Origin: a virus
IMG/VR virus record: IMGVR_UViG_3300024999_000379
Coordinates: 1 to 24,558 of that record
DNA: 24,558 bases
Direction: 5' to 3' (one strand)
Shown here piece by piece: positions 27 through 15,561 of the stretch. Both the position numbers and the translations under genes were made by a program. The first letter of the stretch is position 1. Every line of letters begins with the position of its first letter. The notes beneath the pieces were generated by a model. That model did not search any database. It saw nothing but the letters and a program-made list of their open reading frames with translations, and was not told where the DNA came from.

Positions 27-620
27 TTATTGGTTAGCTTTGAAAAAGGCTTGAGCGAATCCAGGGGGAGTTATGCTTCTCATTTCCTTCGTGTGTGCTG
101 ACTTGCCACCATACATGGACCACAACTTGCTTCCCTCCGTTGGTTCAACTGGATTCTTTACTAACTCATTGAAATTTCCCCATAATAGAGTCTTCTTTGT
201 GTATGTGTCGCCATAATCGCAAGGATGAAAACTCATCCGGGGTGGTCCTATCCATTTTCTTAGTTTTCCAACTGGATTCTCTAATGCCCAAAAGGTAGGT
301 TTGACCGTGTTGATTATTCGCAGGCAAGCATCAACCAAACTAAGCGCTTCTAGTATCTGCTTATCTGTTCTTGGGTGCTTTGCCCCACTACCTGAGAAGT
401 AGGTACACACCGGGGCCGCTAATACCCCATAAACATTACCTATATATTCAGCTATGTCACTGAACTCGCTAGGCAGACGTGGGGTCTTACTTGGTTGCGA
501 AGGGAATAATCTAGCGTCATTATCGGGTAGCGTTACGAGTCTTACGTCATAACCATTTTCCAAGTAGGGTCTACTCCAACTTCCGGTCCCGCCACAGAGA
601 TCCAGAATTATCTTAGACAT
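27..620 (-). CDS. Short C5-cytosine methyltransferase-like protein
   Basis: The 197-residue product resembles the catalytic half of DNA (cytosine-5) methyltransferases, which transfer a methyl group from S-adenosylmethionine to cytosine. Visible motifs in order: SAM-binding motif I DLCGGTGSWS (residues 7-16), a motif IV-like APVCTYFS with the candidate nucleophile Cys72, and a motif VI-like ALENP (113-116). Typical C5 enzymes exceed 300 residues and carry a target recognition domain; this protein has little room for one. PVC replaces the usual PPC at the active site. It overlaps the end of the Spo0A-like gene by 13 bases, so the two are translationally coupled. It may be an active small phage enzyme protecting against restriction, or a relative with another substrate. 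Family confident, activity uncertain. Confidence 0.72.
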   Translation of the reverse strand: MSKIILDLCGGTGSWSRPYLENGYDVRLVTLPDNDARLFPSQPSKTPRLPSEFSDIAEYIGNVYGVLAAPVCTYFSGSGAKHPRTDKQILEALSLVDACLRIINTVKPTFWALENPVGKLRKWIGPPRMSFHPCDYGDTYTKKTLLWGNFNELVKNPVEPTEGSKLWSMYGGKSAHTKEMRSITPPGFAQAFFKANQ

Positions 621-958
621 TCATTCTCCTTATCTGCCAACCGAATCACAATCACTCGATGCAATGTTGCCAAAAATTCCGCACTTCCCAGCTCATAATT
701 AGTGCCAAGCACATCCTTCTGTACATGGAAATCTGTCTTAGCGCATTGCAGAGCATGATAGATATTACCCTCTACTGTGCGAGGTGAACAGTTGTGTATT
801 TCTCCTGTTTTGGTATATAACTTGATCATTTTCTGAATGTACATAGGATTAGAGTTGATTAGATCCATTGAGGTGGTGATGAGCTTGAACCCCTTCATAT
901 GTTGAGGTATTTGGAGAGTGTTGAGGATTGACAGTGTTTCTGCTTCAAATGTGGTCAT
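608..958 (-). CDS. Spo0A C-terminal (DNA-binding) domain protein without receiver domain
   Basis: The start chosen is the ATG at 958 (MTTFEAE), preceded by AAAGGAG at proper spacing; an upstream in-frame start would lack that site. Residues about 10-75 match the effector domain of the sporulation master regulator Spo0A: IPQHMKGFKLI aligns with the IPAHIKGYQYL helix of Spo0A, and CSPRTVEGNIYHAL (57-70) with its recognition helix TTASRVERAIRHAI. The N-terminal phosphoacceptor domain of Spo0A is absent, so phosphorylation would not control it. The 45-residue tail is unfamiliar. It overlaps both neighbours by a few bases in the leftward early operon. It could bind 0A-box-like sites, compete with host Spo0A, or regulate phage genes. 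The domain match is by eye but strong. Confidence 0.75.
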   Translation of the reverse strand: MTTFEAETLSILNTLQIPQHMKGFKLITTSMDLINSNPMYIQKMIKLYTKTGEIHNCSPRTVEGNIYHALQCAKTDFHVQKDVLGTNYELGSAEFLATLHRVIVIRLADKENECLR

Positions 959-1286
959 GGCGTTTGCTCCTTTCTCCCCACACAATGCTATCTGCTCTGC
1001 TGAACACCGGATTAAACGGTTCCTGCCCTTTCATGCCCCACCCAACATAATCGACCACTACAGCCTTCATACTGCCATCCTCCTTATCATCGCTCCACAA
1101 ACTACCTCCCGACTTCATTAGACTCTTCCAGTCATCCTTATTCCGTTGCAACCTCTCAATAGTGGCTTGCTTTTCCTGCCTATTTTTGTAAGCTTCTACC
1201 TCATTGCGAAACCATTCAAACTTGATTAGCTGATTGCCGATTACTTCACAGAGTTTCTTGCTGATTGCCTTGAGTTTGCTTTGCAT
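945..1286 (-). CDS. Hypothetical phage protein, N-terminal coiled-coil-like
   Basis: This 113-residue protein begins at ATG 1286, which overlaps the TAA of the upstream gene (TAATG), with AAGGAGGG just upstream. The first 55 residues are charged and helical (Lys/Glu/Gln-rich, coiled-coil-like); the rest carries a Trp/Gly-rich stretch (VDYVGWGMKG) and an acidic patch. No known family is recognised. Tight overlaps on both sides show it belongs to the leftward operon. Confidence 0.8.
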   Translation of the reverse strand: MQSKLKAISKKLCEVIGNQLIKFEWFRNEVEAYKNRQEKQATIERLQRNKDDWKSLMKSGGSLWSDDKEDGSMKAVVVDYVGWGMKGQEPFNPVFSRADSIVWGERSKRHDHI

Positions 1287-5423: not shown

Positions 5424-5804
5424 ATGAATGTCGGAGAGAAAATTAGATACATCCGAGGTATACGCGGTTATTCGTTAACTAAACTTTCGGAGATAAGTAA
5501 TGTGTCCTTGCCCTACCTAAGCGAAATAGAGAATGGAGTAAAATATCCTTCAAATAAAGCCTTGACCAAGATTGCCCAAGCGTTAAAGGCTAATACCTGG
5601 TTCTTTCTTGATGATAACGCTCTTAGTTTTGAGGAAATGATAAAGCTATCTGATTATGAGCCACCAGAAGACATTGTGGAATTCTTTGCCACGCGAGAGA
5701 GTCTACCGTATGCCGTCCTTGCCCGAGATTTAGCAGCAGAACAGATTGACCCCACATTTCTCCGAGAACTCCTAGAATCAATCAAGAAGATGAAAATGAA
5801 ATAG
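5424..5804 (+). CDS. CI-like XRE repressor
   Basis: The 126-residue protein has an N-terminal helix-turn-helix (YSLTKLSEISNVSLPYLSEI, residues 16-35) of the SinR/Xre type and a helical C-terminal half that may dimerise. There is no LexA-like protease domain or Ser-Lys pair, so RecA-stimulated self-cleavage is unlikely; induction would need an antirepressor or another signal. The start is ATG 5424 after AAGGGGG. It diverges from the Cro-like gene and ends at a terminator (5820-5866), so it is probably a single-gene lysogeny unit. The rightward promoter is not certain; AT-rich -10-like boxes lie at about 5390-5410. Confidence 0.82.
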   Translation: MNVGEKIRYIRGIRGYSLTKLSEISNVSLPYLSEIENGVKYPSNKALTKIAQALKANTWFFLDDNALSFEEMIKLSDYEPPEDIVEFFATRESLPYAVLARDLAAEQIDPTFLRELLESIKKMKMK

Positions 5805-5819
5805 TATCAAGATTCGCAT

Positions 5820-5866
5820 TAGGTATTCGGCTATTAAATCATAATTAGTCGAATGCCTACCTTTTT
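5820..5866 (+). terminator. Rho-independent terminator after the CI-like gene
   Basis: TAGGTATTCG (5820-5829) pairs over ten positions, one G-U, with CGAATGCCTA (5850-5859); the loop itself can pair further (CTATTA with TAATTAG). CTTTTT follows at 5861-5866. Confidence 0.8.
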
Positions 5867-13406: not shown

Positions 13407-14318
13407 TCAGGAAACTTCCTTCGTTCTCTTTTTATAATCAGGCCATGCTACAGATTTAAAAGTTGGCTTGAAGTTTACCCATCTTGCAAAATCTGCTTGA
13501 TGTGGATCCTTTTTATCGTATGGCATAACGAATGGATTAACACCTAAACTCTTTAACATTTCTACTCTATATAGATCCTCATCAACCGTTGTGTCGTACC
13601 CTATTAAAACATAGAACATCAATTTGTCCGGAACTATATACTTTGTTAAAATACTTATTCCCTCTAAAACGATCTGTTCTAAGTCCATTGAGTCCCAAGC
13701 GAATCTCAAATAGCCCTTTTTAGTCAACCTACTCCTTCTGAATAACCGAACCCTTGAGAGTCTTTTTGCCTTATCGTCATCAACTAGCCTAATATCTAAG
13801 CCTTGACTAAAATCTGTTCTTATTTTGTGCTTAATCACTTGTCCAACTATTAAATTAAAGTGATCTGGATCCCCTGTTAGGTTATTATCCATTATCATAA
13901 TGTGTTCTTGTCCTTGCCAGAACTGATGTATATCTGCTACTGGGTGCAGTCGCCCCTCCTTAATGGGAACGATACAGAAAGAGCAACTACGATTGCATCC
14001 GCGACTACAAAAACCAGAAGCGATATTCGTATTGTATAGCGAATAGTCAGGGCATAGCTTTTCTACTTCATCAGGTAGTTCAGTAGTTAGGTCAAGCCCA
14101 CTTCCACCTTGGATTATTTCGCAATCTGGATAATATAGGTACTTAGGGGAATCCTTGAAAACCTTTGAGGAATAGATTCTGTCAGGTTTATCCGACTTAA
14201 TATCAAACATTGGGTCGAACATCTTGACTGTATCTCCCAGACCTTTATGGTAATTGGAGAGTTTCATCAAGGCTAAGTTAGGCATTTTGCTATCGACATC
14301 GACTAATCCTATTTTCAA
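13407..14318 (-). CDS. Radical SAM enzyme with B12-binding-like N-terminus
   Basis: The 303-residue protein carries the iron-sulfur motif C108-NRS-C112-SF-C115, embedded in GFCSRGCNRSCSFCIVPIKE as in MiaB-like radical SAM enzymes. Residues 1-90 (KIGLVDVDSKMPNLALMKLS) resemble the Rossmann-like cobalamin-binding fold but lack DxHxxG, so cofactor binding is doubtful. Later segments (MIMDNNLTGDPDHFN, DFSQGLDIRLV, MFYVLIGYDTT) fit the barrel. Radical SAM enzymes use a reduced 4Fe-4S cluster to cleave SAM. Substrate unknown; modification of nucleic acid or a host metabolite is possible. The gene lies between small phage genes and a replication protein. Confidence 0.85.
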   Translation of the reverse strand: MKIGLVDVDSKMPNLALMKLSNYHKGLGDTVKMFDPMFDIKSDKPDRIYSSKVFKDSPKYLYYPDCEIIQGGSGLDLTTELPDEVEKLCPDYSLYNTNIASGFCSRGCNRSCSFCIVPIKEGRLHPVADIHQFWQGQEHIMIMDNNLTGDPDHFNLIVGQVIKHKIRTDFSQGLDIRLVDDDKAKRLSRVRLFRRSRLTKKGYLRFAWDSMDLEQIVLEGISILTKYIVPDKLMFYVLIGYDTTVDEDLYRVEMLKSLGVNPFVMPYDKKDPHQADFARWVNFKPTFKSVAWPDYKKRTKEVS

Positions 14319-15371: not shown

Positions 15372-15399
15372 AAAAAAGCCCCTCCATTACAGAGAGGCT
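15372..15399 (-). terminator. Terminator of the tRNA-like RNA
   Basis: On the minus strand AGCCTCTC (15399-15392) pairs with GAGGGGCT (15384-15377), one G-T, followed by TTTTTT. It ends transcripts starting at 15546 and those of the lysis genes above. Confidence 0.8.
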
Positions 15400-15424
15400 T
15401 AGTCGGCCATGAAAATGACCCCTA

Positions 15425-15546
15425 TGTGTAGGTAGAGATTTGCACTCTACATGTCGTTGCACTTTAATCTCCCTGGCCAAGAGGAGGCATATTTCGACTC
15501 GGATAAATCTCCTTAGAGAAGCGGTTACCTATTTCGCCACTACACA
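15425..15546 (-). ncRNA. tRNA-like RNA with expanded anticodon domain
   Basis: The first and last seven bases (TGTGTAG, CTACACA) form a perfect acceptor stem. T8, a D-arm GCG...CGC with A14, G18, G19 and A21, and a T-arm with a seven-base loop TGCAAAT (T54, C56, A58 kept; G instead of T55; stem six pairs) are all as in class II tRNAs. The middle 70 bases do not form a normal anticodon arm. One fold pairs TCTC (28-31 of the RNA) with GAGA (76-79) around AGGAG/CTCCT; another gives a seven-base loop CTTGGCC with U33 and UGG on a bulged stem. At 122 bases it is about 35 longer than tRNA-Leu. No CCA is encoded. A promoter ends seven bases before it. Confidence 0.65.
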
Positions 15547-15552
15547 TTTAAT

Positions 15553-15561
15553 ATTATACCA
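15553..15561 (-). promoter_or_regulatory. Extended -10 promoter of the tRNA-like RNA
   Basis: TGGTATAAT on the minus strand is a perfect extended -10 (TGnTATAAT). The predicted start, about 15546, is the first base of the tRNA-like fold. No good -35 is present. Confidence 0.72.

Follow-up and report, generated by a model that had tools for sequence, protein, structure and literature searches.

The window analysed here, that is, the whole 24,558-base stretch of a phage record from IMG/VR, carries on its minus strand a tRNA-like RNA of 122 nt (15425-15546). This RNA sits 3' of a small gene named as holin-like by reading (15796-15590, minus strand), and a Phd-like antitoxin gene, with a Pfam score below the cut-off, lies downstream of it (15293-15099, minus strand). 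The holin-like protein had no family match, and a search for its relatives gave none. Elsewhere in the window, the gene at 608-985 (minus strand) encodes a phage protein whose DNA-binding domain is the C-terminal one of Spo0A (Pfam, 3.5e-9), which suggests a spore-forming host, and the one at 13407-14318 (minus strand) encodes a radical-SAM-like phage protein (PHROG 9298, 1.2e-75) with relatives in Bacteroides and Methanomassiliicoccales phages. A radical SAM gene likewise stands beside the tRNA-like RNA of phage LP-114.

All parts of the RNA are read on the minus strand. The acceptor stem is formed by seven pairs between UGUGUAG (15540-15546) and CUACACA (15425-15431), with CCA not encoded, and is followed by U8 and G9. 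The D arm, GCGAAAUAGGUAACCGC (15521-15537), has a 3-bp stem (GCG/CGC), carries A14, A15, G18, G19 and A21, and is common in sequence to the D arms of tRNA-Leu. The T arm (15432-15450) consists of a stem of six pairs, not five (GUAGAG/CUCUAC), and the loop UGCAAAU, which keeps U54, C56 and A58 and has G at position 55. The discriminator (position 73) is U; a 6-bp reading of the acceptor would make it A. The first-pass annotation had described a tRNA-shaped RNA with the acceptor stem, U8, A14/G18/G19/A21 of the D loop and U54/C56/A58 of the T loop kept, and all of these can be read in the window; G55 went unmentioned there.

Between these arms lies a domain of 70 nt (15451-15520), 91% identical to that of the close relative L001, that replaces the anticodon and variable arms. 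A 5-bp stem with a 7-nt loop is not found there; the two-sequence consensus fold instead places a short hairpin, UCUC-UAAG-GAGA (15508-15519; 4 bp, 4-nt loop), without variation between the two sequences, where the anticodon arm would be. A long arm closed by GUCG/CGAC (15453-15498) occupies the variable-arm position and contains one double change, U-A to C-G, between the window and L001. The annotated excess of about 35 bases in the anticodon region proved right, because the class II tRNA-like genes of the same loci measure 77-104 nt and mostly 81-88.

The signals reported around the RNA were also recovered. An extended -10 element, TGGTATAAT (15553-15561, minus strand), ends 6 nt before the first acceptor base; a consensus promoter scan of the window did not list it because it has no -35 box. 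L001 and L026 carry TGATATACT and TGGTACAAT, respectively, at the same distance. A -10 element at fixed distance was rejected as a general feature of the family, being present only in the clade of the window and a few others. Downstream, an intrinsic-terminator-like hairpin followed by U6 (15376-15400, minus strand) appears in the thermodynamic fold as well, and the scan for such elements found 2 against 0.2 expected in shuffles.

Standard tools do not recognise this RNA. Thermodynamic folding alone gave an MFE z of -1.76 and a different fold that does not favour the tRNA shape. ARAGORN reported no tRNA gene and no tmRNA in the window, nor any gene at the RNA positions or any tmRNA in L001, L005, L022, L026, L028 and L036. 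The window matched none of 4227 Rfam models, and Rfam 15 at gathering score placed no family at the RNA positions of the window and 32 loci. The match of the window RNA to covariance model R1 (83.8 bits, E 2.0e-21) is to be read as that of a founding member of the model. Two candidates were dropped as members: L004, which is coding, and L024, which is tRNA-like with a displaced arm and matches RF00005. Rfam calls the latter (5742-5846, minus strand) a tRNA gene at 40.6 bits, and ARAGORN misses it; its variable arm is long, four additional bases precede the anticodon stem, and the loop reads GUCGCAA.

Relatives provide the evidence that the pairing is real. An exact 25-base piece of the 5' part led to two IMG/VR contigs whose RNA differs from that of the window at 10 of 122 positions, the T stem having two double changes and the GUCG/CGAC helix of the middle one, with four more changes at single positions. 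The D arm alone (18 bases) retrieved 24 stretches, most of which have a different acceptor stem and a different middle, together with a T arm built on UGCAAAU. Two broader patterns combining D arm and T loop yielded 5 and 36 stretches, and a further pair yielded 8 and 16, of which three were new. The 41 stretches of the first two broader patterns, chosen by D arm and T loop without demanding pairing, constitute the unbiased test: 35 form the acceptor (7/7) and the T stem (6/6) at the expected places, compared with 0 of 240 slid controls. The other six comprise one cut locus, L034 and L044 with an acceptor of 5/7 and a T stem of 6/6, and three tRNA-Leu genes (L035, L038 and L043, tRNA-Leu-like by reading, with a T-loop match by chance).

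In an alignment of 22 members, 98.3% of 352 core cells are paired (34-47% in slid versions), a figure that is partly circular since some members were found by a pairing filter, which itself gave 5 false matches when run on 3.5 Mb of shuffled sequence. This circularity does not extend to the variety of pair types: double changes occur in 12 of 16 core pairs, that is, in 6 of 7 acceptor, 2 of 3 D-stem and 4 of 6 T-stem pairs, and covariation scores 0.771 versus 0.205 in shuffles, with 0 of 500 reaching the observed value. Covariation in homologues had been proposed as a check on the annotation, and it strongly supports the replacement of the anticodon arm; the seven-base T loop and the elbow residues are likewise kept across the family.

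A wider detector run over all loci yielded a strict set of 51 distinct RNAs, for which a 6-bp T stem and a TGCAAA loop were fixed by the selection itself. All 51 have TGCAAAT, and all 51 have U48 right before the T stem, where it can pair with A15. Of the other 79 RNAs from this detector, 76 have a T stem of 5 bp, and in 74 of these the loop carries UUC, the form of ordinary tRNAs, so that the 6-bp stem and the UGCAAAU loop separate the family from the 74 ordinary tRNAs of the same loci. The remaining three have 6 bp and belong to the family by length and D arm, with the loops TGTAAAT (L127) and TTCAAAT (L172, L177); G55 is not universal, as the last two attest. Relatives left out of the 51-RNA count and of the 26 end types discussed below are L034 and L044 (acceptor 5/7), L046/A511 (degenerate) and L102 (D arm lost). 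The anatomy and the existence of the family can be regarded as nearly certain. Sequence comparison shows a tRNA-like core made up of the acceptor, D and T arms, with the D- and T-loop residues that an elbow requires; the anticodon domain is missing, an additional T-stem pair lengthens the acceptor/T stack to 13 bp, and nearly all members have G at position 55.

The closest canonical counterpart is class II tRNA-Leu. The family shares with it the 7-bp acceptor, U8, the 3-bp D stem, the D-loop sequence, the A15/U48 pair and U54/C56/A58, its D arm (GGCGGAAUAGGUAGACGC and variants) being that of tRNA-Leu; in contrast, it has no 5-bp/7-nt anticodon arm, a T stem of six rather than five pairs, G55 instead of U55 and a middle of 30-137 nt. 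Such resemblance raises the question of whether LeuRS, ignoring the anticodon, charges the RNA as AlaRS charges tmRNA. The kept D arm and A15/U48 would suit this enzyme, and in E. coli, according to PMC9976931, LeuRS needs A73 and elbow pairs, G18:U55 among those listed as important, and not the anticodon or the variable arm. Across the 26 end types, however, the discriminator is A in only 16 (U in 7, G in 2, C in 1), CCA follows position 73 immediately in just one (L022, as ACCA), and G55 would break G18:U55. Aminoacylation as a general rule is weakened by G55 and the loose discriminator, and we consider it distinctly improbable.

Resemblance to tmRNA, proposed in the first-pass annotation, holds only for the layout, in which tRNA-like ends surround a different RNA domain. 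The family has a D stem, ARAGORN finds no tmRNA, and a tag frame is not conserved: the middle of the window has a short ATG frame that is interrupted by a stop in L001 (by eye).

The most distinctive property of the family concerns what the core carries. The 26 end types are matched by 26 distinct middles (similarity cut 0.6); ends follow the host group and middles are exchanged. A single Listeria end type, ATACTCG/GCAAGG, bears five unrelated middles, or six in another grouping that includes degenerate members and merged PSA and L150, perhaps wrongly. It is carried by phages unrelated to one another, namely PSA, LP-101, B025, B054, vB_LmoS_188 and LP-114, and in degenerate form by A511/P100/List-36; we take the first five to be temperate, and LP-114 and A511/P100/List-36 to be virulent. 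Three other end types have two unrelated middles each. The window and L001 share their acceptor and T arm with L026, the middle of which is unrelated, and in L022 two copies separated by 426 nt have the same ends but unrelated middles. In the 148-kb phage G017, eight model matches were found at E <= 0.01, at least four of them well-formed copies. The suggestion of a tRNA with an insert is contradicted by these same ends carrying unrelated middles and by a T stem of 6 bp with UGCAAAU, unlike ordinary tRNAs.

Within a type, the middle is held about as tightly as the core. Between the window and L001, identity is 92% for the RNA and 91% for the middle but 55-56% for the 100-nt flanks (random, 53% by the same measure), and in a group of nine chromosomal copies it is 97%, 96% and 68-70%, respectively; the notion of a relic is at odds with the strong constraint on this chromosomal group. 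Compared with random segments drawn from the same loci, middles have the more stable folds (mean z -1.02, n = 24, versus -0.32, n = 48; p = 0.005); the weak folding of L001, L130 and L155 (z > 0) counts against a functional payload. Double changes inside middles are few (A4, 5 of 47 pairs; A3, 2 of 31, one in the acceptor; A5, 3 of 33, two in the T stem), so the middle structures are provisional. These comparisons show a core that stays constant within each host group and a middle that is swapped as a module, conserved and partly structured within each type.

The main rival explanation is that of an enzyme decoy or sink, in which function would reside in the tRNA-like core alone and any sequence displacing the anticodon could serve as the middle. 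Its candidate targets are RNase P and RNase Z, the enzymes that add CCA or modify tRNAs, or a defence protein that attacks tRNAs and recognises the elbow or the acceptor. The core is indeed the sole part common to all members, with its elbow residues kept and middles unrelated. Mere filler should drift, however, and within each type the middles are instead conserved; their folding is also better than that of controls, and acceptor sequences vary between host groups. We therefore regard a decoy for tRNA enzymes as rather unlikely. The narrower idea of a decoy for anticodon nucleases finds no support because no anticodon loop is kept.

Three further observations concern the middles. A palindromic kissing loop was rejected as a general feature, as 6-nt palindromes number 24 in the 26 middles versus 32.4 +/- 5.8 in shuffles, and yet UGGCCA in the window corresponds to UAGCUA in L001, the palindrome being kept by two changes. 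In one Listeria-type member, the inner hairpin of the middle is the reverse complement of that of its relatives (L149 1501-1634 versus L098 2402-2531), as if the inner part had been inverted between the stem arms. The middles of L027 (459-577) and L094 (2042-2196) hold, by eye, a second T-arm-like hairpin (CACGG-UUCGAUC-CCGUG and GUGG-UUCGACU-CCAC, respectively).

The architecture recurs in the Listeria phages PSA, B025, B054, LP-101, LP-114 and A511/P100, in SPbeta-like Bacillus phages, in Brochothrix, in many Lactobacillales genomes and in metagenomic phages. Model R1 matched in 24 of 24 records tried, most of which hold founding members or near relatives. In the order of a Brochothrix genome, 38 of 395 genomes matched at E <= 1e-8, and 32 of these (counted from the list) reached 60 bits, compared with 50.6 bits for the best ordinary tRNA-Leu met. 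Among 398 Bacillota genomes, 4 matched at 1e-12 (centre included). The order to which an Alkalihalobacillus genome belongs gave 4 matches in 249 genomes; one class reached from a Clostridia genome (291 genomes) and the phylum that includes an Enterovibrio genome (249 genomes) gave none. These counts are to be read with the proviso that genome sets may overlap and strict filters miss weak matches. In the genome collection, a pattern with both arms, its validity checked, gave 0 matches, and the D arm alone gave 45 stretches with one member (L056), the others being by reading genes that resemble tRNA-Leu, of which one is truncated by the end of its contig, or coding or chance matches. No members were found in Lactobacillus A2, phig1e or Enterococcus phiFL1A, nor in the first 50,000 of the 131,522 bases of LP65, a part that leaves most of the tRNA cluster outside.

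Among individual lineages, the Pecentumvirus copy is present in 53 Listeria phage records (BLAST) and, in the records inspected, lies inside the tRNA cluster before tRNA-Asn; in A511/P100 it is flanked there by tRNA-Ser and tRNA-Asn. The L031 type covers at least 80% of the query in five SPbeta-like records, and two more match only its downstream flank. Some members are degenerate, in the D loop in List-36/A511 and by loss of the D arm in LP-P111, which indicates that the RNA can decay. Nine Lactobacillales genomes carry the RNA downstream of azlC-azlD as read (neighbours seen for seven of the nine), and these copies are taken as chromosomal on account of such neighbours. By eye, they have a promoter-like sequence 5' and a hairpin with a U run 3' that differs in sequence and not in form, and they read as a separate unit of promoter, RNA and terminator; a link to branched-chain amino acids through azlCD may be a matter of chance.

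Gene order also bears on whether the RNA is a cis-acting leader of a late operon, for which the 6S RNA of lambda at pR' offers a comparison. In Listeria temperate phages, the RNA lies between the late activator (RinA, DUF722, sigma-like) and the HNH/terminase genes, and Lactobacillales prophages have a similar order by reading. Other placements do not suit a leader: the Pecentumvirus copy within its tRNA cluster, the copies of the window and L001 after a holin-like gene, those of SPbeta-like phages after a small gene, and the chromosomal ones behind azlCD-like genes. A role of this kind is hardly credible for the family. In Listeria-type loci, an Rfam mcrA RNA was noted within about 150 nt after the tRNA-like RNA (L008 2195-2245, L148 1779-1829 and L149 1733-1783).

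Bacterial Y RNAs (YrlA) are also small stable RNAs with a tRNA-like module, and Ro-like proteins occur in some of the same phages; the family differs in keeping true acceptor ends and in its varying middle, and Ro genes are mostly absent. A scaffold of this type would have a Ro-like (TROVE/DUF2828) protein bind the middle while the tRNA-like part docks a nuclease. What makes the idea attractive is the P100-like Listeria phage CKA15, whose very abundant noncoding RNAs, made close to the tRNA genes, were proposed to be Y RNAs, and which encodes a Ro-like virion protein, CKA15_055, said to resemble Ro/Rsr (PMC12282133, where it is also cited that Y RNAs of bacteria mimic tRNAs). In A511, gp57 (L182 9452-10972; 506 aa, DUF2828/DUF7788), encoded downstream of the tRNA cluster, is the likely counterpart of CKA15_055 by position and size, and in phage G011, DUF2828 lies about 0.7 kb downstream of the tRNA-like RNA. 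The Ro-binding motif, which we take to be GNCGAAN0-1G, occurs in 4 of 26 middles versus 0.86 in shuffles (3 of 500 shuffles reach 4). It is nevertheless absent from the other 22, the window and L001 matching only GNCGAA; TROVE (PF05731) was found in 0 of 24 family-bearing records and DUF2828 in 2 of 24, several of these records being fragments; and the A511 RNA lies about 3 kb upstream of gp57, not in the region of CKA15_059-061 (a placement inferred from gene order and size). A Y-RNA-like role is accordingly judged improbable.

Other RNAs offer partial parallels. RnaC (species 1) and rnaD (species 2) of phage T4 are stable RNAs of a tRNA cluster, rnaC having a T arm near its 3' end, but the T loop is UUCGAAU on a 5-bp stem; T4 species 1 RNA (L104) gave no R1 match at E <= 1, and kinship was rejected as unsupported. 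The pseudo-tRNA tRNAOther of Bacillus cereus is likewise a tRNA-like RNA outside translation, although PMC3399842 describes it as keeping a Trp anticodon and as part of larger transcripts. GOLLD and ROOL are phage RNAs of unassigned function often near tRNA islands; unlike the family, GOLLD often exceeds 800 nt and both form RNA cages (PMC12286853). Members have no match to either in Rfam. Searches of the open-licence PMC literature gave no description of the RNA, and subscription journals could hold one. As a kind, it is a tRNA mimic; as a family, no precedent was found.

A constant chassis, a middle that is constrained and yet exchanged, and copies with several middles in one phage are best accommodated by action in trans through the middle. 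We accordingly favour, at a probability of about 0.5, a family of small phage RNAs that would use a tRNA-Leu chassis to present a phage-specific domain as payload. The RNA would be made from its own promoter or within late or tRNA operons and would fold like a tRNA, so that host enzymes might trim and protect it as one. Lack of an anticodon, the 13-bp stack and G55 would keep it out of aminoacylation and the ribosome. The chassis would provide stability and a common host contact, and the exchangeable domain would bind a different target in each phage type, presumably RNA or protein of the host or of a rival phage. That such targets are defence-related is plausible but doubtful. In its broadest form, which we offer tentatively, this proposal would define a hitherto undescribed RNA class of Bacilli viruses in which a chassis fixed by host group and standing outside translation carries interchangeable RNA warheads against host or rival functions, is copied within genomes (up to eight model matches in the 148-kb phage) and has at least once become a conserved chromosomal gene.

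Mimics of tRNA are known one at a time, as tmRNA, Y RNA and pseudo-tRNAs; if the proposal is true, the mimic would itself be a reusable chassis, the remainder being swapped between phages. The family is visible in well-studied Listeria and SPbeta-like phages and yet unannotated there. Presence/absence pairs among Bacillus subtilis phages, together with the conserved chromosomal gene, make an accessible test system: SPBc2, the SPbeta phage of B. subtilis 168, has homologous flanks without the RNA that its sibling phages possess, which implies that the RNA is not essential in the laboratory. Carriers of the RNA include SPbetaL1, L4, L6, L7 and BUCT083. Near the site of the tRNA-like RNA, an Rfam DUF3800-VIII RNA was observed in L031 (2099-2164) and in SPBc2 (NC_001884; L194 9409-9474), where it falls between yonN and yonK in 1.7 kb devoid of annotated genes.
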